NCBI RefSeq assembly: GCF_026151205.1
Contig: NC_087072.1
Span: forward strand, 69,501-133,500
From: Bolinopsis microptera
Taxonomy: Eukaryota; Ctenophora; Tentaculata; Lobata; Bolinopsidae
Direction: 5' to 3'
DNA length: 64,000 nucleotides
Made by a program: the position numbers and the translations under genes. This document shows, piece after piece, positions 17,874 through 41,800 of this stretch (positions are counted from its first letter, which is position 1; each line of letters begins with the position of its first letter). The notes beneath the pieces are model-generated. The model ran no database searches. It was not told the DNA's origin and was given only the letters and a program-made list of their open reading frames with translations.

Positions 17874-18188
17874 TTTTTGACCTTTCGATTCCTTAGTTGA
17901 GAAAACCGGCCAATCCCTGATCTTGAGGTTTGGTACAGTGGTTCCTTGGACAATTATCCTCACATCTGGTGCAGCGATTTTTTTTATTTGACTCTGTTCT
18001 CAAATTATGAGGTTAACCAGGTCAAAAATTCGAAAACTTTAATTGGTTAACCTCATAATTCGAGAACTGAGTCAAATAAAAAAATCGCTGCACCAGATAT
18101 CTAGATAGTTGTCCAAGGAACCACTGTACCAAATCTCAATATCAGGGGGTGGCTGGTTTTTCTAACTAAGGAATTGAAAACCAAAAAA
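17874..18188. repeat. Fold-back palindrome centred on GGTTAACC
   Basis: Arms of about 145 bp (17874-18018 and 18042-18188) are reverse complements with modest divergence. Landmarks include GGTACAGTGGTTCCTTGG and ATCGCTGCACCAGAT. The centre has TGAGGTTAACCAGG facing TTGGTTAACCTCA. It lies inside the TA-flanked element. Confidence 0.75.
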
Positions 18189-18497
18189 GTGTGTTTTGAG
18201 ATAGATGCAATTTAGTGTTTTCAAAATTTTGAATATTCACTGGAATGTATCACAGTTCGTTAGTTAAATAAATAAATAAATAAAGTCAATTTTTACAGCA
18301 CAGCAATATATATCTAAATATCAGATCCTCTGTAATCATAATGTATAAAAAAAGGAGCTTTTCTCTGTGCTGAAGGATGAATCAAGGCAGATCATGGTTC
18401 TGTTAGCAGGCCACCCTGCTAAAATAGACGTATTCCCTTCGTCAAATTAACTATTTACAATACTAAACTTAAACGAACTTAAACGAAATATAGGAAA

Positions 18498-19025
18498 ATG
18501 TTTGCCAATGCACTCATGTTGCCACAATTCGATTATTTAGACACAATCTATTGTAGAGCTGGCAAGACAAAACTTGCTGAACTTGACACTCTGTACAAAA
18601 AGGTAGCCAAAATAGCTCTCAACGTTCCAAAAACAGAGAGCAGCCTTAATGTTTATAGAGACATGAAATGGTTACCACTCCATCTTAGACGACAACTCCA
18701 TCTGTCAAATTATATGTTTAGAATCATCCATGACAATTGTCCTACAAACTTTATGAACAAATTTAGTTACATATCAGGAGGTAGTAGGAGCGGCGAAAGC
18801 TGCAACCTTTATGTCAATAGATCAACATCACATAAAAACTTTCAATACTTGGGGGCAAAATGTTGGAATAATGTTCCAACAGATCTACGAAATCTGCCCG
18901 ATGTTAAAAGCTTTAGTGATTCGTATAAGAAACAGCTACTATCATCTATAACAACGGACCCTAATTATACCGTCGACAATTCATATGACAAATTTTACAC
19001 TGCAATCATAGTCGCCGATAACTAA
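18498..19025 (+). pseudogene. 3' end of a LINE ORF2, same family as the LINE at 27202-30222
   Basis: The 175-codon frame aligns along its length with the C-terminus of the minus-strand LINE at 27202-30222: both have MFANALMLP.FDYLDTI, LYKKVAKIAL-type, WLPLHLRRQ and KFSYISGGSR motifs. Similarity begins about six codons before the ATG (near 18480), so the ATG is internal and the copy is 5'-truncated. The two copies differ at many residues, so they are separate, older insertions of one family, in opposite orientation. Confidence 0.8.
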
Positions 19026-19211
19026 GTAACTTCTAATTCTTTTAAATCTGAGGCATATATAATTGATGTATCGAAAAGATATTCCCTTTTTTACCACCTT
19101 ACCATTCTGATTGATTTTGCACATGACTGACATGTTTTAACTGGAGAAGGGGTTCCCACAGTGGTAGTTTTATAAACCACTTTTAATTTATTGACCTATT
19201 ATACTTAGTGG

Positions 19212-20545
19212 TAATAAAACAAAAGTTTTAATAAAACAAAAGTTAAATTTATTACCAATTATTCAATCAATACATATCATAAATTCTAATATTGGAAACA
19301 CAATGCAAAATGGATGTCTTAAACTATAATTTCATTGTGACTAATAATCTATTGACTTTCAAAGTTGAATTTTAGTTAAGTATGAAATGCCACCACATCA
19401 TAGTTAGGGTAAAATGTTATTTTTAAATTTTAAAATTGAGAAGATTGCTCTATGGCTTAAAATGTAAAATTCTAGCAAAAGATATCTTATTTTTAAATAG
19501 TTGGTTACAGTTTATGACAGTACTGGCATGACTAGTTTTATTGTGGCTGGTAAAAGGACCCAGTTGCCTGTAAGGGCTTTACCGAACCCCAGGGGACCAC
19601 AATGTGATAAGATCAGGCCAGATGTTTCTATGTAGAGCAATTTATTTATTTTGGAGCTATGATTACGTGGTATAGCTGGTGGTCATGTTTAAAGGTCAGT
19701 TTATCCTTGTGTGCTAATTATCCATCCAGATGCTTAGTGATGTGGGTAAATCATGCCCTTCTACGATATATAATGTTTGACCATAAATTTGTTTTTACCA
19801 CATAAACTGTGGCACTAATGTCAATTAACAATATTTACATTCATTGATATTTAAAGCGTGTTTTTTCCCCAGCACTACTACACAACAAAAACCTGTCGGC
19901 CCACCGAGGAAACACGGTCGCAGAACAAAGAGCCCAATTGTGCTCTTCTATTCTGTGATCGTGTGTATCTACTATAAACTAGCTAAATATACTAAGAAAA
20001 TTTAATGGAATCATTACAGTCGTTTGATAAGTTCACGTGTCAAAGTAATGTTCATGGTGATCATATTTTTTGATCCCCGGTGGGCAAACACTCGTCCGAA
20101 AGGTCAAGGCAAACCTGTCGATGTTTCACCATACGAAGTAAGGCGATTTGAACATATACTCAGCTTACAACTCAACCCATGGGACGAGACGTCGTGAGCC
20201 TCAAAATTCTTCAAAATATACAGCACATACCTAGTTAGCAAACACTAAACACAACATACATACGATACCAAATAATGTATAATGCCATTACTAATTCGAA
20301 AGAAAATATATCTGCTATCTAATTTAAAAAATTGAAGAATAAACCTGAAGAAAGGGGAAGGAGAGGGGTTTGGGAGAGGCAGAGTAGGAAAACAACAGGA
20401 TCCTGTGCCGCAGGATTTTAAAATTTGTTGTATGATGATTCGTTTTGTTTCGTCTCTTAGATTAATATATAGGTCTGATACCCTTGTCATGGTTCTTTGC
20501 AATAACACCGTGGTTTACTCATATGATTAAGTTTAGTTAATTAAC
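19212..20545 (-). other. Probable 3' UTR of the bicistronic LINE
   Basis: It lies downstream of the LINE ORF2 stop. At its far end (19214-19246) the word AATAAAACAAAAGTTTT is duplicated, i.e. AACTTTTGTTTTATT repeats on the minus strand, a plausible tandem tail of the LINE. It abuts the TA-flanked element exactly. An imperfect hairpin of about 22-bp arms lies at 19912-19964 (ACACGGTCGCAGAAC ... GTTCTGTGATCGTGT-type). No other gene is supported. Confidence 0.4.
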
Positions 20546-23500
20546 CTATTTCAATGATAATTCATTTGCATCAAAGTTGTAACTGCACCATAGTTGTCTG
20601 TCATATTTAGATTGTAGTTCTAACAAAGCTTTCTTAAGATTATTCTTGAATATACTGATAGGAGTGGAGAAGTCTATTTCACTCGTTGACTTACGGCAGT
20701 GATTCCAAATACTGGTTGATTGGTAGATGAATAGTGAGGACGGAGTGGGTGGGATGAAGTAGTTGTCTCGTCTTGGTGACCTGTTGAATAAAGAGAACAT
20801 TGAGACTGGTGATTGGAACTTATTAATTTTAAACATTTCCAGTAAACAGTGCAACTTATGAAGATTGTGGACAGTCAGGAAGTTATACTCGTTACAGATT
20901 GGTTTACTGTGTTCTAGTTCAAAGAAATCTTTGCCTAACATCTGCTTGATAACTTTACCGGTCTTATCCCTAGTGATAGGCCTTACTCTGGCACATGTTT
21001 TGAACTTATTGAAGTACGCATCATTATCACCAAAGAGAATTCTTATGCATTTCTTTTGTGTTTTAAATATGGCTTCTAGTTTATTATTTGATACACCTCC
21101 CCAAACAGATATTCCATAACATAGGTGTGATTCAAAAAGGGTGTGGTACAGGTCCTTATAGAGTGTTTTAGGTACACAGCGTCTGATTCCACATAGTCTA
21201 CCAATCTCACATTTCAATTTACGATTTAACGCTCTCAAGTGAGCATCCCAGTTCAGTTTTTGGTCAATAATGACTCCAAGAAACTTAGTTTCCTCTACCT
21301 TTTTAATTATTATATTATTCAGTGTCAGTTCTAATTCATTAGTGTTTGAATCTGGTTCATTTCTACAGTTCGGCTTAAAGTGGATATAACAACATTTCTT
21401 TGTGTTGATATGCAGCAAGTTACTCTTCATATATTGATGAACAAGTTTAAGAATTTTGTTAGCTTTGCAGTAAAGTGTTTTTATACATTTATCTACAACA
21501 AATATGTTGGTGTCATCGGCAAAAAGTATAAACTTACCTAGGTCTGATACTCTATATATTTCATTGATGTAGATAATGAAAAGCAAGGGACCTAATACTG
21601 ACCCCTGAGGCACACCAAATATTACAGACAGTTTTTCGGATTCTTCTCCAAGTACTGAAACATATTGCTGCCTATTAGAGAGGTAACTGGCTATTAATTT
21701 ATTTGCAGTCCCTCGAATTCCATAATCATTCAGTTTTTTAAGCAGTTTATCATGACAGATTGTATCAAAAGCTTTACTTAAATCAATGAAGATGCCTAGT
21801 ACATGATTTTTATCTCTTAGTGATTTTTCAATGTAGTCGACAGAGAAGTTAAGTGCATGGCTTGTCGAATGATTTTTTCTGAAGCCATATTGATTTTCAT
21901 ATAATAATCCTTGCGACTGGAAGAAACTGTAAAGCCTGGAGAATATAATTTTCTCAAGTATTTTACCAAATATCGCTAAGGTTGAGATAGGCCTGTAATT
22001 TTCAAGAAGCTCAGCATTTTCTTTCTTATATATTGGACTTATTTTACCTACTTTTAGGTCGTCTGGAAAAACTCCCTGTTGCATACATTCGTTATACAAT
22101 ACCGATAGTAGTGGACTAATTTTGCCTGATACTGCCTTTACTATATGTACTGGTATATCACTAGCCTTGCCATTCTTTAGTTCCGATATGATCTTAGCCA
22201 CCTCTTCAGGTGAGCAGTCATGTAGATATATATTAGCTGTATTCGATTTAGGTAAGAGGTCACAGAAACTTGGAAGCTGATTAATTTGTATTTCTCCTAG
22301 TTCTGTGTAGGCTGCATTAAGGTTAGATGCTAGGGATACAAAATACTTATTGAATTCATTCGCTATAACTCTGCGATTAGTTATCTTTTCATTGTCTATG
22401 GTAAATATAGGTCTGATCTCACGTTTCTGTTTGCCACGAATTTTATTTATAAGTTCCCAGGTTTTCTTGGAGTTTCCCTGAGTTTCAAGAAACTTGTCAG
22501 AATAATATTCAGATACAGCCATTTTACGAACCTTTTTTAGAGCCTTTCTATATTCTTTGTAGTCATCATAATGGTTTCTTTTATTACAGCAGATAGAACA
22601 CAGGCATGTGCCCCCTTTTGTGTCAGTTTCGCCTTGTTTACACTTAACTTTCCTGACTTTCGCCCAGTCATCATACAGTCCATGGCAGTGGTTTACTGAG
22701 GCTATAATCCCGCCAGTAATCCAGGGGTTGTTCTGGATAGTGCGCTTAGTGGTTTTGGGTACAGCTAGTTTGCAGGTTTCGTCAATGCTGTTTTTAAAGA
22801 TATCATGAAAGTTGGTAAAATCTATAATTGGTTCATTATCTAGTTTATTACCCAAGACTTCAGCAAATTTATCAGTGTTTGACTTACAATAGTCATAATA
22901 TTGAGTGTGCTTATGAGTATTTTTGGTCTTGCTAATTTCCCAGTCAGATATATTAAATATAGGGAGGTGGTGAGATATGTGATCAGTTATGACTCCAGAG
23001 GCAGTAACAGAGTCTAGGTCATTTGTAATGATGTTGTCGATGCATGAGGCATTACATCCAGGCTTTTCATGAGTTGCTAATGATATCAATGGGAAGAAGC
23101 CTCTACTGAATAGGACGTCTTCATACTGTGCAATAATGTTACTGTGTTTACCATGGAGATTAATGTTAAAATCACCTGCAATTTGTGTATGTTTTGGTGC
23201 TTTATCAAGGATTGACGACAATTCTTGGAGAGCTTGCTCAGCATTGCCACTTGGAGGGCGGTATATTACTCCTATAGAAGTAGAATTTCCTATACTTCCT
23301 ATGGTTACAAAGAGGGTTTCTAGATTTTCTGTTACTTGTGACAGGTTGTTATTTTTAACAGCATTAAAGGAGTTAAGGACATATAGAGCTACTCCTGAGC
23401 CTTTTACTTTCGAGTCAAAGGTATCTTGATAGAAGCTCTCATAGCCTGTGAGTTCGTACAAGTTTTTCAATTCAGGGCCAACATTTGTTTCAGCGAGACC

Positions 23501-23929
23501 AATTACAGAGAATTTGTTAGTAAATCTAGCTATTTCAATTGCCAGCGAGTCAAAGTTTGATTTGTTGCCATCAAGATTTTGAAATATTAGTGAGTTTTGC
23601 ACTTGTAATTCGTGAGCAAAGGTGTGGTTTATGCCTTTTACAGAATATGAGTCACAGCTTTCAAGTACCTCAGAGATTTTACGTGTAACATCATCTGCAT
23701 CAGTGTTATCATCATTGTCATCATTCAGAAGCTTGAATGGGTTATAACGGATTACTGCTAGGTGGAGACAATTATTGCAGTACAAGTCAACTTTTTGATT
23801 TTGTTTGTCACTGGTGTTATAGCATCTAGAGTGAATGGGACAGTTACAGTTGTAGCATTCAAATATAGATTGACCTAGATAGATACTTTTTAAACAGTGG
23901 GCACAGACCTCTTTTTTAAGAACATTCAT
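20546..23929 (-). CDS. LINE ORF2: zinc finger, AP-like endonuclease, reverse transcriptase (1127 aa)
   Basis: The protein copies element RNA into DNA at a nicked target. An N-terminal zinc-binding module (residues ~9-55, CAHC...CYNC...HSRC...CNNC) resembles a PHD or C1 finger. The endonuclease follows (~115-335): QNLDG, GLAETNVG, YRPPSGN, the catalytic AGDFNINL, CIDNIITND and TDHISHHLPIF. The reverse transcriptase (~600-860) shows NYRPISTLAIFGKILEK, NQYGFRKNHST, FIDLSKAFDTI, GVPQGSVLGPLLF and the metal-binding FADD box. The start is an ATG that overlaps the ORF1 stop as ATGA (23929-23926). All expected active-site residues are present and no frameshift is seen, so this looks functional. Confidence 0.92.
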   Translation of the reverse strand: MNVLKKEVCAHCLKSIYLGQSIFECYNCNCPIHSRCYNTSDKQNQKVDLYCNNCLHLAVIRYNPFKLLNDDNDDNTDADDVTRKISEVLESCDSYSVKGINHTFAHELQVQNSLIFQNLDGNKSNFDSLAIEIARFTNKFSVIGLAETNVGPELKNLYELTGYESFYQDTFDSKVKGSGVALYVLNSFNAVKNNNLSQVTENLETLFVTIGSIGNSTSIGVIYRPPSGNAEQALQELSSILDKAPKHTQIAGDFNINLHGKHSNIIAQYEDVLFSRGFFPLISLATHEKPGCNASCIDNIITNDLDSVTASGVITDHISHHLPIFNISDWEISKTKNTHKHTQYYDYCKSNTDKFAEVLGNKLDNEPIIDFTNFHDIFKNSIDETCKLAVPKTTKRTIQNNPWITGGIIASVNHCHGLYDDWAKVRKVKCKQGETDTKGGTCLCSICCNKRNHYDDYKEYRKALKKVRKMAVSEYYSDKFLETQGNSKKTWELINKIRGKQKREIRPIFTIDNEKITNRRVIANEFNKYFVSLASNLNAAYTELGEIQINQLPSFCDLLPKSNTANIYLHDCSPEEVAKIISELKNGKASDIPVHIVKAVSGKISPLLSVLYNECMQQGVFPDDLKVGKISPIYKKENAELLENYRPISTLAIFGKILEKIIFSRLYSFFQSQGLLYENQYGFRKNHSTSHALNFSVDYIEKSLRDKNHVLGIFIDLSKAFDTICHDKLLKKLNDYGIRGTANKLIASYLSNRQQYVSVLGEESEKLSVIFGVPQGSVLGPLLFIIYINEIYRVSDLGKFILFADDTNIFVVDKCIKTLYCKANKILKLVHQYMKSNLLHINTKKCCYIHFKPNCRNEPDSNTNELELTLNNIIIKKVEETKFLGVIIDQKLNWDAHLRALNRKLKCEIGRLCGIRRCVPKTLYKDLYHTLFESHLCYGISVWGGVSNNKLEAIFKTQKKCIRILFGDNDAYFNKFKTCARVRPITRDKTGKVIKQMLGKDFFELEHSKPICNEYNFLTVHNLHKLHCLLEMFKINKFQSPVSMFSLFNRSPRRDNYFIPPTPSSLFIYQSTSIWNHCRKSTSEIDFSTPISIFKNNLKKALLELQSKYDRQLWCSYNFDANELSLK

Positions 23930-25995
23930 ACTGGAGGCTGATAGCCTTCAACATGAGGCTGTCCTCCGGCGGCATGAGAATAAAGTGTTGAACCAACCTT
24001 ACCGTCCCTCCTACCCCTCTTCCTCCTATCAGTCCCTCCATGCATCCTAACAAGGACAGTATTACGGATTAAAGTAGCAAGTTTGGCCACTCCCTTCCAA
24101 TTAAGGTGCAGGTAATCCGTCCGGCCATATTTGTCAAACTCCCTGGACAAGGTTGGGCAAAGTAAGCCAGTGTTATTATCCAGGAAGTCATCAAAGCCAT
24201 CAACGAACTGGACACCAAAGTTTTTGGGAAGTAGCTCACGTCGAATAAGCTCTATAAAGTATAGAACTTTCCTATTTAAGTCAGTATTTCGAGTTGGTAA
24301 AAGTGGACAAAGAAATACTTGAGCAGTTGGATTGGCCTCTTGGATTTGCTCAATCTTGAATTCTAAAAGACTAAATATAGCAAAAATTTCACGTTGAGAT
24401 TTAACAGATGGTCTTCTAACATCATTAATACCACACATAATAACAACGTTCTTGTATCCACATGCAAGATATGGGTTAATGTCATCTATTGTCGGAGTCC
24501 AAACATTCCGACCAGGCAGCCATTTACCAAAGCTCCTCTTGTGATCCTCTCCAAATTTCATACCTGATCCGTTTGAATCAGAGAAGATACAAGTACTAGC
24601 ACGATTCTTTCCGTCTATTGATCTGAAAGTAAAACTATATCGTACTGCACCAGTGACTGACCCCTTCTGGATAGAGTGCTTGTAGTGAGCCTGACTCCTT
24701 CTGGTCATCCTGTAAACTGACCTGGGGGTACACTTGTGTGTGTGAACTGAGTTGTTCATTTCAGTGAAGAGGACTTCGCATTCACCTCCAATGGAAAGAG
24801 TCAATATGCTAGATTCTGGATGTATCACTGGTTCGTTGTCAGAATGTTCTGGCAGGTAACCCTCGCCTTCTTCGTAGCGGTTGATCAACACGCTATTCAT
24901 TACAGGATTTTCTTCTGCACAGAACTTCTCATTAATTTTCAGGATGAGCGCAGCCAGTTTCTCCGGTATTTCTGCATTTTTCTTGTTCTCATCCCTGGAT
25001 CCACTGTATTTGTATTTCTCTCCAAACGAACACACTGAGTGCCCATTCTCCTTGCTGAACTGAAGAGATTCGCAGTACTGGAGAAGATCTGATTCAGCAT
25101 CACTGTCTATGAATTCTTCCACTGTGTCTGCCACAGGTTTTTCTTCATTTTTAAAGATGGTCTTTGATAGAAGGTGCTTATCATTTAATGCAGAGCCAGA
25201 TGATGGCTTATCGTGAGGAATTGTAGTCTGTTGGGTAGACAGTTGGTCTAGAGACTGCTTGATATCCTTCAATTCAAGAGAAATGTGCGGTTCCTGCCGA
25301 GTATGTTCATCAAGCTGGTCAATGATATCATGTATCAGTTTCTCAGTGTCAAGCTTGGGAGCAGTAGATGAGACAAGACCTTTGGTGGAAAGATCAGTGA
25401 TTTGTTTCTGAAGGTCCTCAATAGCCGTTTTAACACCATTCACATCTTCACTTAGTTCTCCTTTACAGTGGTCTTCTATGCTTTTGACCCGGTTTTGATG
25501 GTCTTTCAAACCATGTTCATTGGTTAGCAGGTGTTGCAGGTGAAGGTCGAGGTTTTGGATCACCTGGATTGACTCTTTCATTTTATCAACATCAATTGTT
25601 GATAGTGATTTTGTCAAGGTTTCTATGTCTTTGAGGTTCTGACAGGCAGAGTGTACCTCATAATCACTATTGGACTGTTGTAGACTCAGGGTGTTCCGAC
25701 ATTTGTAGCAGAAGTTGTCGTGTGAGTTGGTTGGTACAGGTGCTACGTAGCAAAATGGACATAACCACTGTTCCAGCTTCAATATTGACGGCTTCGTGAT
25801 ACCCTTTAGTCCCAGACAATCTGCATGCCAGTTCTGTTTGCATCCTGTGCATACTAGCTTGAAGCTTCCAGTATTCGACTGGCTACATGGGCATCTATCA
25901 ACATTATGATGCTCTTTTTTAGTGTTTTGCCCTGTTCCTGTCACAGAGCCACGTCTATTTCCGGTAGATGGTGTTTTTATACCTGTACCTGACAT
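23926..25995 (-). CDS. LINE ORF1: PHD-like finger, coiled coil, AlkB-type 2OG-Fe(II) dioxygenase, SGNH esterase (689 aa)
   Basis: I chose the ATG at 25995, reading MSGTGIKTPS. The open frame runs upstream to 26058, but only with a GTG start and a hydrophobic stretch. A PHD-like finger comes first (~residues 33-83: CPC..C..C...H..C...LCPFC). A coiled coil occupies ~120-270. Then an AlkB domain (~310-460) has NRYEEGEGYLPEHSDNE with the HxD iron ligands, ILTLSIGG, the distal His in HYKHSI, and RYSFTFR with the two Arg that bind 2-oxoglutarate. Last is an SGNH hydrolase (~465-670) with SDSNG (nucleophile Ser), CGINDVR (oxyanion Asn) and DYLHLNW (Asp-x2-His). A basic RKRGRR patch lies near the end. 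PHD plus esterase is known in CR1-like ORF1; the added dioxygenase is unusual. Likely roles are RNA binding and repair or modification of element nucleic acid, which is inference. Confidence 0.88.
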   Translation of the reverse strand: MSGTGIKTPSTGNRRGSVTGTGQNTKKEHHNVDRCPCSQSNTGSFKLVCTGCKQNWHADCLGLKGITKPSILKLEQWLCPFCYVAPVPTNSHDNFCYKCRNTLSLQQSNSDYEVHSACQNLKDIETLTKSLSTIDVDKMKESIQVIQNLDLHLQHLLTNEHGLKDHQNRVKSIEDHCKGELSEDVNGVKTAIEDLQKQITDLSTKGLVSSTAPKLDTEKLIHDIIDQLDEHTRQEPHISLELKDIKQSLDQLSTQQTTIPHDKPSSGSALNDKHLLSKTIFKNEEKPVADTVEEFIDSDAESDLLQYCESLQFSKENGHSVCSFGEKYKYSGSRDENKKNAEIPEKLAALILKINEKFCAEENPVMNSVLINRYEEGEGYLPEHSDNEPVIHPESSILTLSIGGECEVLFTEMNNSVHTHKCTPRSVYRMTRRSQAHYKHSIQKGSVTGAVRYSFTFRSIDGKNRASTCIFSDSNGSGMKFGEDHKRSFGKWLPGRNVWTPTIDDINPYLACGYKNVVIMCGINDVRRPSVKSQREIFAIFSLLEFKIEQIQEANPTAQVFLCPLLPTRNTDLNRKVLYFIELIRRELLPKNFGVQFVDGFDDFLDNNTGLLCPTLSREFDKYGRTDYLHLNWKGVAKLATLIRNTVLVRMHGGTDRRKRGRRDGKVGSTLYSHAAGGQPHVEGYQPPV

Positions 25996-26155
25996 CACAC
26001 AGCCAAGCAACACACAGCTAATAAAGACAGCACAGCAAACAAACAACGAATTACTCACGGCTCCCCTTTGGGGGTACTAGTACATGCTATTCCTCAATAA
26101 ATGTATTTAATTGTAGTTGTGAAAATAGTTTAAAAGAAGTTATTTAATTTTGCTT

Positions 26156-26876
26156 GTTTTATAGACCACATTTAATTTATTAACTTATCATACTTAGTAT
26201 TTTTTTTGGTGACTGTATCACCCAGTTTTAACATTTGATAATTGTACAGTTTATTGACGACACATTGACTGAATGTTATTTTATATTCTAATTTATATTC
26301 TAGATATTTTATTTATTTTACAACAGACGACAACTTCCTGTTTTTTCTTCTATATTAGTTACTCATATCTCTTGTACAGACTTTTTTACAAGGACATTGA
26401 CAAATGATACTCACATTAGGCATTCATTATTGCATCTAAATTATTTCACTTGCATTAGGCTTAGAAATTTATTCTCTGGTCATCAGATTTCAAATGTTTA
26501 ATTAATTTGTAGTATGACAGTAAGGTATATAAGAAGTTATTTAATTTTGCTTGGGCTATTATATTGACTAGGTATTGAGGTTTAATGATGATATGGAATT
26601 TGAATTCTATATAAATTTACACTATGTGGTTGGGGCATTTTGCATAGTAAATATGGTTACTACTCATATATATCATATTATTTGATTGGTATTCGATTTC
26701 TGATTATTTCTCTAGGAATATGATTATTATATCTCAATTTGGCTTTAGGTAGGGTGCCCCGCTAAAAGAACTGGATTCTTCCAGGAAGCATCCCGTGCAC
26801 AGAGCTTGGTCTACATATATATTAAATTATTAACCATTCATTCTGTATGTGCACGAAAATTTATTTCAATCAAAAA
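26156..26876. repeat. Right arm of the ~722-bp long inverted repeat
   Basis: Reverse complement of 16744-17465. It sits exactly between the 5' end of the bicistronic LINE and the 3' region of the second LINE. A 23-bp segment from inside this arm (AAGAAGTTATTTAATTTTGC at 26531) also occurs immediately outside its inner edge, at 26134-26156. This is filler-like duplication at the LINE junction. Confidence 0.85.
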
Positions 26877-27201
26877 AAACTCCGGGTAAAATAAACGTAA
26901 TCCCTTTGTCAAACTTGCTATTTACAATAAGTTAATAAATTAATACGGTTGAAAATTATTTCATATTCAATAACAATGTAGCATCAATATAATTGATACA
27001 AATGAGGAGCATACATAGCAGTGAGAATTGCACATAACAGGAGGACTGGAGGTATGGAGCAATAATGATTGACAGTGCACCTTTCCACTGATGTTCCTAA
27101 TTTCCTGTAATAGCTTAATAGGCATGGAAATACCTTGATTGCAGGGGATAGATTGGATTCACTTATTCACTGAGATAACTTAACCGAAATAACATAACTG
27201 C
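26877..27201 (-). other. 3' UTR of the second LINE
   Basis: Non-coding DNA between the arm and the LINE stop. Its first part (AAAATAAACGTAATCCCTTT ... CTATTTACAAT) resembles plus-strand 18421-18462 just upstream of the LINE tail fragment at 18480. A further repeat therefore borders both LINE copies, in the same orientation although the LINEs are opposed. Confidence 0.4.
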
Positions 27202-30200
27202 CTAGATACATTGGCTAGTGTTGGGTGGGATCATGAATTTATCGTTAGAGTTATCCCCTTGGTAATTCTCATCAGTTAGCACCATATTCATAAGAGTTTC
27301 TTTGTATAACTTAGAAAATTTCTTAACGTCGTCACACTCTCTAAGGGACTTTGGTAATATGTTCCAGGCCTTAGTTCCTAGATAGTTAAACTCCTTGTGA
27401 GATCTTGATTTAGGAGTATAAAGATTGCAGTTTTCTGCCTCACGTGATCCACCAGAAATATACGAGAATTTCCCGATAAAATGCTTTGGACATGTTTCAT
27501 TGATTATACGGTACATATATGAGCTAAGATGAACCTGTCGTCTCAAATGGAGAGGAAGCCATCCCATATTTTTGTATACATTAACCGACCTCTCTCTGAT
27601 GTTTACATCTAGGGCTATTTTAGCAACCTTTTTGTACATGATATCTAACTCTCCTAGTCGTTTTTTATATGTTCTTGACCAGATGGTGTCTAAGTAGTCA
27701 AAATGTGGCAACATAAGTGCATTAGCAAACATCTTCCTGAACTTAAGAGGGAGAAGTTTTTTTGATCTATACATAGCACCAATTCTTTTGGATATCTTTT
27801 TCTTAATGTTATCAATATGTTCATTAAATGTCAATCTGCTGTCAACTATAAGTCCAAGGTACTTATGGGATTTAGTTTCACAGATTACCAAAGTAAGGTC
27901 ATCACAAATTTCAACAAGGATGGCATCAAGGTTAGGCTTAGAGTCAAGGATCATTAGTTTTGTTTTTTCATTATTCAGGGATAGTTTATTAGCCTGAAGC
28001 CATCTGATAACTAATTTCAACTCTTGTTTGATGTTACCATAGTTTCCTCTAGATATATTGTCAAAATATAATGCACCGTCATCAGCAAATAGATAAGGTT
28101 TAGAAAATAGGCATGCATTAGGCAGGTCATTGATAAAAATGCTGAATAGAATTGGTCCTAATATACTTCCTTGAGGCACTCCAGAGTTCAATGAATGTAA
28201 ACTGCTTATCCTACTCCCAACTCTAGTTTGCTGTAATCTATCTGTGAGGAAGCTCCTAAACCAGCTCAATGCAGTATCTTTTATTCCATAATGCTTCAGC
28301 TTTTGAATGAGAATATCATGGTTAACAGTATCAAATGCCTTTCTGATGTCCAGGAAGATAATTGCAGGATGCTTGGCGCTGTTCTTAGCAGTAAATATAC
28401 GATCAAACAGATCTAACATGAGATAAGTTGTAGAGTGATCTTTACGGAAACCATATTGATGCTCTGAAAGTATTCCCTTTTCATCAAGATATTGAGTCAG
28501 TTGGGAGTTCACACAAAATTCGATGCACTTTCCAAGAATCGGTAAAATTGAGATTGGTCGATAATTACTAGGATTCTCAGTATCACCATCCTTATGGATT
28601 GGGGTGACTTTTGCAACCTTGCAGCTGTTTGGCATGATGCCACTGGATAAACTCAAATTTACAAGATGTGTTAATGGAGCAATAAATGCAGGTAAAATTT
28701 GTCTAAACACTCTCAATGGTATATGATCATTAGTGGATTTGCTACAAGGGATACTTGCCACATAGTCTAAGATATTGGACTCAGTTATTTCAGTAAAGCT
28801 ATTCAAGCTGGTCTCGTTGTCAATCTGCTCATTTTGTAGATAAGATAGAAATTCATTTTCATTTTCCAGCTGCACTTCTGCTTGGATCTTTGGACCTATT
28901 TCAGCAAAATATTTATTGGTGGTTTCAGCATCAAGATTGTTATTGATATTGTTAGCTTTAACAGGCAGATTTGATGCTGTCTTTATCGTTTTCCATACAC
29001 CCTTTAGATCATTCATGGCACACTTGGCTTTCAGTTCTGTTGCTAAGTTAGTCTTCCTATTAATTCTAGACAAATAGGTTGAATAGTTTCTCTGCCGTTT
29101 ATATGCCATCCATAATGAGTCACATTTATTACAGTGTATAAGACCATTTGGATGTATACGTCTGTTCTTGTTGTGTGTTAAAAATTTACGGTAAAGTTTC
29201 CCTTTCAATTTCTTACTTTCTAAAAATTCTGGAGATGGCTTATGGATGTAATCACTATGGCACTTAATTTGTTTAATTGGACAGAAGTGATCATAGTAGT
29301 GATCAATATGTTCGTTTAAACCATCAACTGCATCATTCAGACTAGTTGAATCTATTATTGGTCTATAATCACAAGTTTCCAAAAATTCTTTAAGAGCAGT
29401 AACATTCATTTTGCTGTGATCTCTTCTTAGTAACTTCTTGAATTTTGAGGCCTTATGCACATTGAAATCGACAATGAACTTTACGACCTGATGATCTCCT
29501 ATACAATCATCAAGGACTTTGCAGTCAAGAAACTTGGAGTAAGTGTTTGTTATGACAACATCGATTGTGGTCTTTGTGATTCTGTTTCCTAGTTTAGCAA
29601 TGCGGGTAATATCCTGAACTACCTGTACCATTCCAAACATTTTCATTGTAATGTCTAATTTCTTATAGTTCATACTGCTGATGTTGTTTTGGTCTACATT
29701 TACATCACCCAGCCAAATAACATTCTTACTTCCTATACTCATCATGCAGTCTGTCATATAATCTAAAAATTTGTCAAGAGGACTAAACAACTCAGATCTG
29801 TAGAAACAGCAGATGAAAATATTGCAATCTGTAAGATGGATCCAAATAGCCTCGATTTGGTCATATTGCAAAACTAAGTTTAGTTGAATCATTTTAAACT
29901 TTATGTGCTCACTGATGAGAATGCCACATCCCCCATGACCATTGTCGTTAGGGCGGTCTTTGCGGATAAAAGTAAAATTCTTGGGTAGGTTTAGACTGGC
30001 TGAGTCAATATCCGACTTAAGATTTGTTTCATTCAGGCATAAAACATCTAATTTCTCTTTCCAGATTAGATCTTGGATTTCAAGACATTTTGGCATACCT
30101 GTTAGTCCTCCCTGCATGTTGCAATGTCCCACTGCAAGCTTTTTGGCATGGTATGAAACTGTGATTTTACTAATGCACGGGTTAATGCAAGAACTGCTGT

Positions 30201-30222
30201 GAGAGCATGAAAATTTTTCCAA
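27202..30222 (-). CDS. LINE ORF2 of a second family: endonuclease plus reverse transcriptase (~1006 codons)
   Basis: The endonuclease (~residues 28-270) shows VGHCNMQGG, LCLNETNLK, GHGGCGILIS, WLGDVNVDQNN, TTIDVVITNT and IGDHQVVKF. The reverse transcriptase (~520-760) shows NYRPISILPILGKC, HQYGFRKDHSTT, IFLDIRKAFDTVNHD, SGVPQGSILGPILF and the FADD box. A conserved C-terminal domain follows, with WLPLHLRRQ and KFSYISGGSR. The frame is open throughout. There is no in-frame ATG before the first endonuclease motif: the frame begins after a TAG, the first candidate is TTG at 30222, and the first ATG falls right after the motif's essential Asn. So the copy is probably 5'-truncated or uses a non-AUG or coupled start. 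No ORF1 is found upstream. Confidence 0.88.
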   Translation of the reverse strand: MEKFSCSHSSSCINPCISKITVSYHAKKLAVGHCNMQGGLTGMPKCLEIQDLIWKEKLDVLCLNETNLKSDIDSASLNLPKNFTFIRKDRPNDNGHGGCGILISEHIKFKMIQLNLVLQYDQIEAIWIHLTDCNIFICCFYRSELFSPLDKFLDYMTDCMMSIGSKNVIWLGDVNVDQNNISSMNYKKLDITMKMFGMVQVVQDITRIAKLGNRITKTTIDVVITNTYSKFLDCKVLDDCIGDHQVVKFIVDFNVHKASKFKKLLRRDHSKMNVTALKEFLETCDYRPIIDSTSLNDAVDGLNEHIDHYYDHFCPIKQIKCHSDYIHKPSPEFLESKKLKGKLYRKFLTHNKNRRIHPNGLIHCNKCDSLWMAYKRQRNYSTYLSRINRKTNLATELKAKCAMNDLKGVWKTIKTASNLPVKANNINNNLDAETTNKYFAEIGPKIQAEVQLENENEFLSYLQNEQIDNETSLNSFTEITESNILDYVASIPCSKSTNDHIPLRVFRQILPAFIAPLTHLVNLSLSSGIMPNSCKVAKVTPIHKDGDTENPSNYRPISILPILGKCIEFCVNSQLTQYLDEKGILSEHQYGFRKDHSTTYLMLDLFDRIFTAKNSAKHPAIIFLDIRKAFDTVNHDILIQKLKHYGIKDTALSWFRSFLTDRLQQTRVGSRISSLHSLNSGVPQGSILGPILFSIFINDLPNACLFSKPYLFADDGALYFDNISRGNYGNIKQELKLVIRWLQANKLSLNNEKTKLMILDSKPNLDAILVEICDDLTLVICETKSHKYLGLIVDSRLTFNEHIDNIKKKISKRIGAMYRSKKLLPLKFRKMFANALMLPHFDYLDTIWSRTYKKRLGELDIMYKKVAKIALDVNIRERSVNVYKNMGWLPLHLRRQVHLSSYMYRIINETCPKHFIGKFSYISGGSREAENCNLYTPKSRSHKEFNYLGTKAWNILPKSLRECDDVKKFSKLYKETLMNMVLTDENYQGDNSNDKFMIPPNTSQCI

Positions 30223-30361
30223 TTTATGCTGCTATAAACTTGTCAGTAAGACTTGTCAGTAAGACTTTCTATACACTTAACAACGTTTCCTTGATCAGAC
30301 CTAGCCATCCCCTAAATGATTTTAGCCACCTTTAGTAGTTAATGTCCTTGTATTGTAAAAA

Positions 30362-31080
30362 ATGAGGTTAACCAAGACTTCCTGTAAACACTTACTACTT
30401 AAAAGTAGGAAAAAATTGGTTGTTAACCTCGCTTTAGACCATATAACACTGGGATTAGTTTATTAATATCTTATTATATATGTAGTAAAACATTTGCACA
30501 GTGTAACGAAATTAAGTTTTTGAGGTTAACATGTATTTGACTGGTCAGATATTCCAAAAATGAGAGGTTAATCTCATTTTTTAGCCATTTACGGATAAAA
30601 TCTTCTACTAAAATGTGGTCGGTTCAAATCACCTTTGTCGCGTGATTATAGTTGTAGGCATTGTGATACCAATAGATACCTCACTGCGATATTGTGGTAC
30701 ATTACATTTAAGTAAGAATCGTATGTATATTCCCTACAGTACCAACATGTGATGGTTAACCTCATTTTTCCATTTTTCCAAGATAAAAGAAAGTCAATCA
30801 ACACGTCATCTATTTAGAAATGTGTATACCGTAAACTAACGATGAAAATAATAGCTCTATCATTTGATCTATTCTCGCTATAACTAAAAAAAAGAGGTTA
30901 ACCTCATTTAATCACGTTTGGAAATTACTTTTTCTGATAATTATGAACCTAAAATTTAGAGTTAACATTTGCTGACCGAAATTTAAAAAAGATTATGGAG
31001 TGTAATAAAATATTAACCTCAATTTTATTAACCTCAATGTTGTATAGTCAATTTTGTGAAAATCGGTTAACCTCAATTAT
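30362..31080. repeat. Cluster of GAGGTTAACC motifs
   Basis: The word GAGGTTAAC or its complement GTTAACCTC recurs around 30363, 30423, 30521, 30566 (variant), 30753, 30893, 31013 and 31025 (TTAACCTCA) and 31065. The copy at 30893 is a full palindrome, GAGGTTAACCTC. Spacing is irregular (20-200 bp) and both orientations occur. The same motif forms the centre of the fold-back at 17874-18188. It could be subterminal transposase-binding repeats or transcription-factor sites near the NOL8 5' region. Confidence 0.6.
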
Positions 31081-31763
31081 TAAAAAAAGTTGAGCAGCTA
31101 CAAATATGTGAATAGCAGCAATGTTTTTGTCATTAAAAATTATATTGATTTAGATAATAATATTTTGGTCGATGTTTTTGACCCCTTACCCCCCCCCCCC
31201 CCCCCCCTCTGGCCTTAAAAGATTAAATAAATAAAACTTAAATGTCTTCCAAATCGTATGTCTTCAAAATCACTAACGAACTTCATTTGTGTCTTAACAT
31301 CCCCCTCCAGTGCCTTTGAAGTGTGATCACTGTCCAATTCTTTACATCATCAAGTTCCCTTTTTAAAACAGTAGTATCTAAAACAGAATAAAGCTATGTT
31401 TTTCCATGTTCTTAGTGATTCAGGACTCTGGGATCTCTGGATTCTAAACGTTACGCAAACCAGTGGTAAAAATATTTACACACTTAATTTGACATCAGTG
31501 TTGATATGCACACTTGAAGCTAAGTTGATATATGAGATTGTTCCAATTAATTCATCTAAAAAGGCAGATAAGGTTTGACTTTTAACAATAAGGGCAACAT
31601 CTGATCCTCATCATGTGAGGCACTTCTGTAAGTTAAAGTGGACCAGACCTGTTGGCTGTTTAATTTTACATTTAAATATTTAATAGACAAATCTTTTACA
31701 TTCAAGAATACTAAGTACTTTTCAATTGAAATCCAATATTTACAGTATTATTGTAAAGCAATT

Positions 31764-32849
31764 ATGACCCAAAAGAACTCCAATGAAAAGCGGCTTGCAG
31801 CATTACAAAATAGAAAGCTGACTCAGTCCTCCCAAAATGAACTTGTTCGTAATGCATTGTCTGACAAAGCTGTCAGCAAGATTACCAAGTTCAGTGATTC
31901 TGACGATGATGACACACAAGACGACCAAAAAATGACTGACATTCTTCATGATGTTGATGAGGAAGAAGATGTTTGCTTTGCTGTCAAGCCACAATTCTTG
32001 GGTAAAAAGGGTGTAAAACTTATGACAATGCAAAGTAAAATAGGTTCAGATGATAGATTCCAGCTCGATACTCGGTTTGAGTCTGGCTCAGACAGTAACA
32101 CTGATTCTGAAGATGATGAAACAAGAGAAATGAATAATGAAAGACAAACTTTGTACAACACAATGGATTCTGTGTTGGGTGGCCTTGGTATAACTGCTAA
32201 ACCAATAACAGCGGCAGAAAACCAGCACGTCGTTGATCAGTATGTAAGGTTTGATCCAACTGATGTCAACCATGAGAAATTTTTAGTTTCTCACAAAGCT
32301 CCACTAGAAGCTGATGGTCCTGTTGAGGAGACAATTCTGGGGCATGATTCAAATAACAAAGAAGATGAAACAAAAGCAAAAGATAAGATTGATCACATGC
32401 CAATAGTTGATGAAAGTACATTCTTTGAAGTAAAAACTGATTTTAATAAGACTATTGCTGATAACACAAGCAATTCCAACGGTTTTAGTTTCAAATTTGA
32501 TTTTGCTATTGAGAGTTCACAAACTAATGTCCAAGAGAGTGATACAAATCAGGCCCAAGCACAGGACTTCTCAATTAAAGAACTTCAACGTGATTCTTCC
32601 GATGAAGAAGAAACAATTGACACTAAAACTTTTAATAAAGAATCTGTAAAACGTCAACAAGACAACTATTTCTTTTACAGCATAAACCCCTTATTTAGAA
32701 AGGGTCCCATTTCTCAGTTCAAGAGAACTAAAACTATGGAAGAAATTGAGCAAGATTGGATATCCCAGAGACAACAGCTTACTGCAGAATACAAGAAGAG
32801 GCATAAAGATGCTGTCAGGTTTCAGAAGAAGTTTATTGCTAAAACCTGA
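31764..32849 (+). CDS. NOL8: Nucleolar protein 8 homologue, C-terminal portion (361 aa from this ATG)
   Basis: NOL8 is a nucleolar protein tied to pre-rRNA processing and growth control. The sequence follows the C-terminal third of animal NOL8 in order: NEKRLAALQNRK, an acidic DSDDDDTQDD stretch, VKPQFLGKKGVKLM with SKIGSDDRFQLDTRF, a central FDPTDVNHEKF, GFSFKFDFA, an acidic SSDEEE, FFYSINPLFRKGP, and a basic KKRHKDAVRFQKKF end. The frame is open upstream to 31638, but only with non-ATG codons. A TTTACAG acceptor at 31745 suggests that 31764 may be an internal Met in a last exon. The N-terminal RRM of full-length NOL8 is not found upstream, where only repeats and LINEs lie. Either distant 5' exons exist or this is a short form. 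Confidence 0.85.
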   Translation: MTQKNSNEKRLAALQNRKLTQSSQNELVRNALSDKAVSKITKFSDSDDDDTQDDQKMTDILHDVDEEEDVCFAVKPQFLGKKGVKLMTMQSKIGSDDRFQLDTRFESGSDSNTDSEDDETREMNNERQTLYNTMDSVLGGLGITAKPITAAENQHVVDQYVRFDPTDVNHEKFLVSHKAPLEADGPVEETILGHDSNNKEDETKAKDKIDHMPIVDESTFFEVKTDFNKTIADNTSNSNGFSFKFDFAIESSQTNVQESDTNQAQAQDFSIKELQRDSSDEEETIDTKTFNKESVKRQQDNYFFYSINPLFRKGPISQFKRTKTMEEIEQDWISQRQQLTAEYKKRHKDAVRFQKKFIAKT

Positions 32850-38806: not shown

Positions 38807-41800
38807 TTACTCATGATCCCCCCCCCCCCCCCCCCCCCCCCAGTATATAATAAGAACTAGTTTATAAAGCAAGGTAACATGAGCTGTAGCCTGTTTAAAG
38901 TGTTCTTATCAAATGTAATAGAAAGATGAGAACTTAACATCAGTTTACGTTAAGTACACTAGTGCCATTAAGAGGGGGAATGTTGGGAAACAACATGCTC
39001 CCTCTCTAGTGGCTGTATTACACAGTATCTTCTTGCTCCCTTTTTCCCCTCCACTATTGTTTTACTACCTTCATAGCTCATTGCTTCTCTTGTCGTGCCC
39101 TTATTTTAGCCGCCCTTTCGAACCCTTTTAGTTACTTTCCACTTTTCGGTTTGATAAGACTTGAAGTTAATGTTAATCTATATTAGATGTTTCTTGTGAA
39201 CGAATACTCGTGAAATAGCAGCAGCATACTAGAAGACCCTTCTTTGGTTGGGGAGCCATTTTCGTCTGGGCAGGTTATGTTCCGGGATTTCCTTATTAGT
39301 TAGGAGAATATTGTCGTTTTACTAAAAGCTTTTTCTAGAAGATTACAAGGAATCTCCAAAATAGAAGATGGCCTGGTTCAGTATGACAATCTTCAATACT
39401 ATGTAGAATGTAGATAAACGGCATCAGATTATCAGTCAAACTTACCTGTGAATGAAGGGAAGTCAATGTTATTGAATCTTTTCTCTTCTGGATCATGCTG
39501 AAAGGCAGTAAGTCTCTCACCTCGCAGTAGTTATACACCATCAGTTGTTGATGGAAATGACTATATTATTCAATTTGCTTGCTCAGCCTCCAGCCTTTTG
39601 TGGTTTGTCGATATCCCCATAGCGGTCCTTCAGAGGCCTGTCCAAATCTTGTACGCGCGCGTGCGCGTAGACCACATAATTTCAGCATCAATCCTAGTCA
39701 CTCGTAAACAAACTGCACTGCTTTCAGCATTTTCTGTGTCTCAAAATAATTATAATGACATAAAAATTTTCTTGACGCTGATCCAAGATGTGATATCCCG
39801 TCGCTCTTGCAGAATTTCCTCAATTTTATGAGCGGTTGAATCATGAATGACATTACCTGTTATTACTTCACTCCAACCCAAGATTAGCACCCTATATATT
39901 CTCTTAGATCATTACGCAACCTACAATAAGTGTTCCTTAGATGTTACCATCAACCATGACGTAGTATTGTGTATTGAGACAACTGAAACACCACTAAAAT
40001 GATCCCAATAATTTTATTCTTCCAGGACAACCACAAGGCGTCTATATTTACCCACGGTAAGCTGTTCAGATTCGCTTTAAATATACCCACGATTTTATCT
40101 CCAGCATTAATTAAATATCAATTGTATTATTATCGAACTCCGATTAAATTTGGTTAAATTTAATTGTGATTGCAGACAACATCTGTGCGAACAAAAGGCA
40201 GCTACCTCAAAGAAAGAAAGCAAAAGCAATATCTGACGACTTCGTGGACTCAGATTCGTTGATCCATGCAAAAGAGGAGAAAGTCAGCTACTCTCCTTAC
40301 TCGTCACATAGCGTCAGTTACATTTCCTTATGATACTTATTTGCACTTCCAATTATTTTCTGGGCCCTTCAGCGTTTTCTGTGTAAAGGTTGCTAAGAAT
40401 TTGACTCTCAAAGCTAGCAAATCAGACCGGTGCCGGAAATTTCCCGAATTTCGGGCTCTTTACCCGCAGTCTTACTAAGTTTTGACTCTTTCAGTTTGAC
40501 CATGCCCGCAAGAACAAAAGGATGCGAACAAAGCCGGCTGTTTCAGTTTCGAGGTCCTCTGTAAAATCATCTATTCTCCTGAAGGAAGCTGTTAACTCCA
40601 CAGTACAACCCTCCTCGGAAACCAGAGCTGTTGTGCAGGAAATGCTCAATGGAAACAGCGACATCATGAAATATGACGGCATCGCCAAGGTTAGTCGCAC
40701 TTTAGAACTCTTAGTAAACGTTTTCTTTTCCCGCCCTTGTACGAAACGTTTGACTATATTTAGTGACGAAGATAGTTTACAAATGTGATTTTCAGAAGTG
40801 TCTGAACATGGAAGAGTTCATGAACCTGTCCAAGTGCCAGCAGCGTTACCTCGCCTCTTTACTGCCCTCCTCGGACGTCAGAAAAGAACGTAACAATCTG
40901 AAGTAGGTGTATTTTCGTGTCCTTAGCGGTGATCTGGGGCCATGTTGACGTAATCTCGGACAATGATTTGTAATAATAAAGCCATTTTATGTATACTAGA
41001 CCAGGACGAAGCCCATATTGTTCTTATACACGGCCCTAAACTCGGAATCGTTAATATGTATTCCCTGACACTCTTGTATTGTGATGGTTGATAAGTCTAT
41101 TCTCCAGACTGGCACCGACTGCTCTCACCAACTCCTTCTTTGTTTCCTACTTCCGTGAGTGGCAGGACAAACTCGGCAAAGGTAAGCAGTGCAGCTTCAA
41201 CTTTATTCAAACCTTCGACACGGTCATTTTGTTATTTGATCACCAGTCACTCAGCTGATTTCTATGAAGTTCATATTATTGTAACTGTATTGTATATTTT
41301 ATAATGAACCAAAGTCAATGATCGGTAGATTACATTAAATCATTGATTGATTAAATTGCCAATGCTTTCCTAGACTTGGTGACTAAGGTGTGATTATTTT
41401 ATCATTGACCACGCCTCAGTCATGATGCGAAATATTTTCAAACATAATCAATTATAATGAACCAAAGTGGTGCTTTTCTATCGTGCAGTTTTTCATTAGA
41501 TTATACCATTTAGGAGAGTTGTCGGTTGAATTCGCTGCCAAGATTAAAGCTGAAGCTGATAAACAGGTTTCTAGAGACCCTTGGAAGGAAACCTTCTTCG
41601 AGGATGTCTGGGGATTCTCGTAAGTATTGTTAACTAATCAATAACTAATCAAGTATTACGTTTTTTCATAACGTCTGCGGTAAGGATTAGGATTTCCGTT
41701 TCCGGTATTACAATCCTGGTATAGTGTTTAAATATTGATAATATGGTTATTTTAGGCGAACGGAAGAAGTACGGAGCAGCAAGTCAAGGTTGCGGCAGTG

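Follow-up and report, generated by a model that had tools for sequence, protein, structure and literature searches.

Why would a retrotransposon carry what looks like a demethylase? The question is raised by a 64-kb stretch of the genome of the ctenophore Bolinopsis microptera (the window, to which all plain coordinates refer), in which a long interspersed nuclear element (LINE) on the minus strand encodes a domain of the AlkB family of 2-oxoglutarate (2OG)- and Fe(II)-dependent dioxygenases within its first open reading frame (ORF1). Enzymes of this family are known to take methyl groups off RNA and DNA, and the ORF1 protein is the one that travels with the LINE RNA. An earlier note on this DNA had read such a domain into the 689-residue ORF1 protein, together with an SGNH esterase and a PHD-like finger. 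The features of ORF1, with residues counted from its ATG, are as follows.

23926..25995, minus strand: ORF1, 689 amino acids (aa), ATG at 25995 and stop at 23926
25750..25893, minus strand: PHD-like C4HC3 finger, ORF1 residues 35-82 (PF00628, 23.8 bits; PHD of DIDO1, E 5e-4)
24622..25023, minus strand: AlkB domain (2OG-Fe(II) dioxygenase), by Pfam at ORF1 residues 325-458
24091..24588, minus strand: esterase domain of SGNH/GDSL-like type, at ORF1 residues ~470-635 (PF13472 under its cut-off, E 1.3e-5)

The 2OG-FeII_Oxy_2 profile (PF13532) matched the window ORF1 with 55.1 bits against a curated cut-off of 31.2 (E 1.5e-14), so the significant profile match that the earlier note had named as a test was obtained; the cut-off was also exceeded in the relatives L129, L136, L138, L139, L146 and L138(-). 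The ligand set is complete, as the note had claimed. Its HxD...H iron triad (H384, D386 and H440) and R-x5-R pair (R452 and R458) were invariant in the window element, eight further LINE ORF1s and 28 bacterial AlkBs. The bacterial set came from the best 80 of 516 relatives; 53 of the 80 were used, and clustering at 65% identity reduced them to 29. One set (A6) includes 28 of the 29, without L049, and another (A7) includes 25, without L032, L049, L053 and L058. The 2OG-contacting N-x-Y is N372-x-Y374 in the window ORF1. HxD and R-x5-R were kept at 45 of 46 distinct places matching the core pattern, and four further frames, among 53 found by profile, were truncated or altered at the AlkB core.

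The second test named in the note concerned the fold, and the predicted structure of ORF1 residues 288-470 (24586-25134) shows the double-stranded beta-helix, with AlkB-type fold matches. A sequence search of the PDB with the window ORF1 found ALKBH2 (E 1e-4), and a profile built from six LINE AlkBs found ALKBH2, ALKBH3 and ALKBH8 with E values between 1e-10 and 3e-8, and E. coli AlkB with 0.011. ALKBH2 and ALKBH3, which repair 1-methyladenosine (m1A) and 3-methylcytidine (m3C), gave the best sequence and fold matches and have the full ligand set, but they are cellular enzymes and only 16-22% identical to the LINE domain in fold alignments. Judged by its residues, the AlkB domain looks catalytically competent; the modelled fold by itself does not settle its substrate.

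Is this a single odd copy? We searched the genome (264.65 Mb in 232 contigs; G000), and our counts of copies and domain matches cover the matches listed rather than all candidates. Three full-length ORF1s, in the window and on contigs C9 and C43, were 100% identical (63 of 1143 candidates scored). Their 1.4-kb 5′ flanks and that of a 99% identical copy on C4 showed no match among them, and these four copies are therefore separate insertions. Twenty further loci, with 43-46% ORF1 identity, were retrieved; in all 20 the ORF1 is 640 aa or longer, and 16 have an ORF2 of 1084-1122 aa with a GVPQGS motif. Of these loci, L126-L136 make up family B and L137-L145 family C, which comprises two subfamilies ~85% alike; the window element belongs to family A. 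ORF2 identity between the three families is 61-67%, and the Fe ligands and both arginines were invariant in five aligned ORF1s from families A, B and C. The distant family L146 keeps AlkB and SGNH, with no PHD match. In P0001, the beginning of a further family truncated where the locus ends, PHD_4 scored 28.5 versus 30.6 bits; this fragment had no PF13532 match, and by eye an AlkB domain begins in it. The AlkB-LINEs are a multi-family, recently active lineage.

An AlkB match lay directly upstream on the same strand for 118 of the 150 listed SGNH matches (150 of 521 candidates scored); the other 32, several of them in short frames, had no listed upstream AlkB. Likewise, 32 of the 150 listed AlkB matches (150 of 783 candidates scored) had no listed SGNH match. 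A second AlkB list, obtained with a bacterial AlkB query (150 of 687 candidates scored), overlapped the first at four places, which gives a union of 296 among the matches listed. The top three matches to the bacterial query (38-43%), at G000:C5:18690421, C2:9636388 and C5:22266868, are possibly host ALKBH genes, and frame lengths vary widely, so not every AlkB place can be taken as a LINE. AlkB matches were also seen inside open frames of 2225-3388 aa at C3:14441689, C10:16875804, C9:15868165, C9:11092847 and C12:2469586. Separately, the 5′ flank of L097 (G000:C9 near 2322400-2323800) holds a short tandem repeat array with a period of ~8 bp, upstream of an identical AlkB-LINE copy.

Selection appears to keep AlkB intact in several copy families. 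In three subfamily pairs, the ratio of nonsynonymous to synonymous divergence (omega, Nei-Gojobori) of the AlkB domain was 0.064, 0.158 and 0.141, with bootstrap intervals <0.3 after removal of draws with saturated synonymous divergence (dS) and Fisher p values of 3e-17, 2e-8 and 2e-18; between-family pairs, saturated or nearly so, were left out. Such purifying selection supports a function but says nothing on the substrate. Between the ORF1s of L129 and L136, dS was 0 in PHD, 0.31 in AlkB and saturated in SGNH. Differences of this strength along ORF1 are a sign of recombination between its segments, and ORF1 looks mosaic, as if subfamilies had exchanged them.

The three domains that the note had read in ORF1 are confirmed: AlkB lies above its cut-off, and the other two have their residue sets present and invariant but Pfam scores below the cut-offs. 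All eight zinc ligands of the PHD-like finger (C35, C37, C49, C52, H57, C60, C79 and C82; C4HC3) are invariant across five aligned ORF1s, as is the SGNH catalytic set of S474, N524, D627 and H630 (Ser, Asn and Asp-x-x-His). The Pfam match of Lipase_GDSL_2 (PF13472) spans ORF1 residues 508-635; because it misses its cut-off, we call the domain SGNH-like. A profile of six LINE SGNH domains matched SGNH structures at E 0.0036-0.053, and the ZfL2-1 esterase (4c1b) was absent among its eight PDB rows up to E 1. As a single sequence the domain matched no SGNH structure, and nothing was found for it in plasmids or phages. The linker between PHD and AlkB is predicted, at low confidence, to be helical (single-sequence AF2, pLDDT 39).

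To judge by its coding sequence, the element is a LINE, that is, a non-long-terminal-repeat (non-LTR) retrotransposon with an endonuclease-reverse transcriptase (RT) ORF2. Its remaining features, including untranslated regions (UTRs), and those of its insertion site are given below.

19214..26108, minus strand: whole LINE copy, ~6.9 kb (5′ UTR of ~113 bp, ORF1, ORF2, 3′ UTR of ~1.3 kb)
20546..23929, minus strand: ORF2, 1127 aa
23768..23905, minus strand: N-terminal Cys/His finger of ORF2, residues ~9-54 (C1_1 under its cut-off, E 0.0016)
22958..23578, minus strand: endonuclease region of ORF2 (Exo_endo_phos, PF03372, E 5.8e-4; Exo_endo_phos_2, PF14529, E 3.3e-4; both below cut-off)
21266..22027, minus strand: reverse transcriptase of ORF2 (RVT_1, E 2.2e-36; human L1 ORF2p, E 1.8e-21)
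26109..26155, no strand: 47-bp filler at the 5′ junction of element and target, part of which resembles 26525-26553
18486-19213 and 26156-26881: high-copy repeat hosting the AlkB-LINE, the 3′ end of another LINE lineage

The ATG of ORF2 overlaps the stop of ORF1, with ATGA in common, and the open frame of ORF1 starts upstream of its ATG, at GTG 26058. A candidate APE-like endonuclease region, resting on the two below-cut-off Pfam matches, precedes the RT; among the ORF1 and ORF2 domains of the window, only the AlkB and RT matches exceed curated cut-offs. At the N-terminal ORF2 finger of one relative, Prok-RING_1 and PHD_2 match weakly. Matching ends exactly at the 5′ limit, 26108, in 9 of the 12 other fetched copies that reach so far, and at 26106, 26132 and 26135 in the others. 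On the 3′ side the flanking repeat picks up again at 19213, and other copies have the 3′ UTR in common down to 19500 or further, the query ending there. The element is inserted within the repeat, whose two halves abut without overlap in other genome copies (pairs compared by eye). In many genome copies the match starts only within ORF1 and then runs to its end; they are 5′ truncated, as LINE copies are. We call the element CR1/L2-like by its ORF1 domains, a clade name that rests on domain make-up.

How far does this go beyond known systems? CR1/L2-type LINE ORF1s with PHD or esterase domains were reportedly described by Kapitonov and Jurka in 2003. Metcalfe and Casane (2014, PMC4120745) and Schneider (2013, PMC3905857) give both as known ORF1 domains of these LINEs, which likewise pair ORF1 with an endonuclease-RT ORF2; there, an ORF1 with PHD is of type III and one with esterase of type IV, whereas here both lie in one ORF1. 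The ORF1 esterase of ZfL2-1 is active, according to PMC3905857. Neither AlkB nor oxygenase occurs in PMC4120745, PMC3905857 or PMC5408684. Titles and abstract beginnings of open-licence PMC papers describe no AlkB-bearing LINE, nor, as the earlier note had supposed, one that combines AlkB, SGNH and PHD; a prior entry in Repbase, Dfam or subscription journals is possible. None of the three tests set in the note went against its interpretation, which is supported, with the removal of methyl or alkyl marks from element RNA or cDNA standing as an inference. The nearest prior art (PMC9289625) is an AlkB ORF in an orchid (Phalaenopsis) Ty3/Gypsy element, likewise a retrotransposon-encoded AlkB-family domain with its cofactor residues kept, which demethylates N6-methyladenosine (m6A) RNA in vitro. 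That element is a plant LTR retrotransposon with an ALKBH5-like, m6A-active protein in a separate extra ORF; here, animal LINEs carry AlkB within ORF1 beside SGNH, and its nearest relatives are ALKBH2/3/8. The same text lists AlkB domains in the replicases of Alphaflexiviridae, Betaflexiviridae and Closteroviridae (PMC9289625). RNA viruses are likewise RNA-based elements with AlkB, and the top fold matches include Grapevine virus T, GLRaV-3 (grapevine leafroll-associated virus 3) and a Picornavirales sp., but viral AlkBs lie in a replicase or polyprotein context, and identity in these fold-match rows is 18-28%.

What, then, might the domain do? LINE ORF1 proteins bind element RNA, and AlkB enzymes act on m1A/m3C, m6A or tRNA. 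Of these marks, m1A and m3C block reverse transcription and m6A does not. On balance, we favour a reading in which ORF1p, with its catalytically competent-looking AlkB, demethylates element RNA or nascent cDNA. Like LINE ORF1 proteins in general, ORF1p would cover the RNA of its element, and within this ribonucleoprotein AlkB, using Fe(II), O2 and 2OG, would strip methyl groups from the RNA or nascent cDNA; from a template cleaned in this way, more full-length copies would be made. The most likely substrate would be m1A/m3C, because the sequence is nearest to ALKBH2, ALKBH3 and ALKBH8 and because these marks block RT.

It is unlikely that AlkB acts instead as an m6A eraser, removing host-deposited m6A from element RNA and so evading stress granules or silencing, a role proposed for the orchid Ty3/Gypsy protein. 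The six-LINE profile, nearest to ALKBH2/3/8, listed neither ALKBH5 nor FTO up to E 0.1 in the PDB search, and m6A would be no obstacle to RT. Human L1 is helped by m6A and is suppressed by ALKBH5 in human cells, as stated in PMC7873242, which argues against plain m6A removal. We regard as improbable an action on DNA or chromatin, in which PHD would dock on histone tails and AlkB would clear alkyl or N6-methyladenine (6mA) marks from the target site or the cDNA while target-primed reverse transcription proceeds. The nearest PHD is that of the reader DIDO1, and the best sequence match, also among the top fold matches, is to ALKBH2, which repairs DNA; against this, L146 keeps AlkB and SGNH with no PHD match, so AlkB does not depend on PHD, and by eye bacterial AlkBs have a longer N-terminal lid region. 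We give equally little credence to an AlkB fold kept solely as a nucleic-acid-binding module. Loss of the N-x-Y tyrosine in two families (below) would fit it, as would the orchid catalytic mutant, which still binds RNA (PMC9289625), but Fe ligands and arginines invariant across families and kept at 45/46 places are more than RNA binding alone would demand. An artefact, be it chance resemblance, assembly error or a LINE inserted in a host ALKBH gene, can be dismissed, given one open frame in which PHD-like and SGNH-like parts flank AlkB at many sites and in several families, an E value of 1.5e-14 and no finding in its support.

Several observations weigh against the demethylation reading or the three-domain architecture. 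The PHD-like finger misses the PF00628 cut-off by 0.2 bits in the window (23.8 versus 24.0), reaches 19.5-19.7 bits in family C and gives no row up to E 0.1 in a Pfam scan of family B. The SGNH-like domain falls 6.7 bits short of the PF13472 cut-off (26.2 versus 32.9; relatives 19.1-27.5). N-x-F replaces N-x-Y in families B and C. By eye, comparison of flank pieces with genome copies showed no target-site duplication at the window insertion, the only one compared. Three SGNH matches with B-type scores had no AlkB among the matches listed:

C1:9182035-9182670: B-type SGNH without AlkB, 782-aa frame, beside a B-type ORF2
C3:19436125-19436760: B-type SGNH without AlkB, 318-aa and perhaps truncated frame, beside a B-type ORF2
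C11:15168906-15169541: B-type SGNH without AlkB, 1474-aa frame, near the high-copy repeat that hosts the window element

To judge by these frames, only C1:9182035 is a clear long ORF1 without AlkB.

Does AlkB occur in other LINEs? The repeat hosting the window element leads to a second lineage.

18498-19025: end of an RT frame in the host repeat
27202-30222, minus strand: second LINE ORF2, 1006 aa (RVT_1, E 6.1e-37)

The RT end at 18498-19025 is 63% identical to the second ORF2 and does not match the ORF2 of the AlkB-LINE significantly; between the two ORF2s of the window, identity is 28% over 586 aa. On the strand of the second LINE, the AlkB HxD pattern was not found up to 34000. Genome-wide, 150 of 1266 RT-end candidates were scored, and the 46 with an open frame of at least 900 aa were compared with the 150 AlkB matches listed for the bacterial query. 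In 31 of the 46, a listed AlkB match lay upstream on the same strand, no more than 6.5 kb away; in 29 of those 31 the start-to-start distance was 3.7-3.9 kb. The remaining 15 had no listed upstream AlkB. There were 0 such matches on the opposite strand and 1 downstream. These coordinates and AlkB scores are a sign of AlkB in the second lineage. Tentatively, we suggest that AlkB may be a standard, exchangeable ORF1 module of LINEs in this animal lineage, common to at least two distantly related LINE lineages and clearing RT-blocking methylation, whether damage or host-deposited, before target-primed reverse transcription. In viral contigs, single-protein queries, which find close relatives only, brought up nothing related to ORF1, to its AlkB domain or to ORF2; nine viral-contig loci matched the RT of the two window ORF2s at 22-29% and were not used.

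Elsewhere in the window, a short palindromic motif like GAGGTTAACCTC recurs in noncoding DNA at 18000-18063 and 30350-31085. The open frames at 41790-43841 (plus strand) and 31638-32849 (plus strand) look host-like and, by eye, resemble ASXL and NOL8.

LINE ORF1 proteins have so far been viewed as RNA chaperones with few accessory domains. A selected oxidative demethylase in ORF1 would mean that some LINEs control nucleic-acid modification during their life cycle, and what was known from plant RNA viruses and one orchid LTR element now extends to animal LINEs. If AlkB is indeed a shared ORF1 module that clears the template, such a LINE would change the chemical state of its own RNA, and nucleic-acid methylation would be a front of LINE-host conflict in animals. 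The AlkB-LINEs offer a direct test of whether RNA methylation limits animal retrotransposition.
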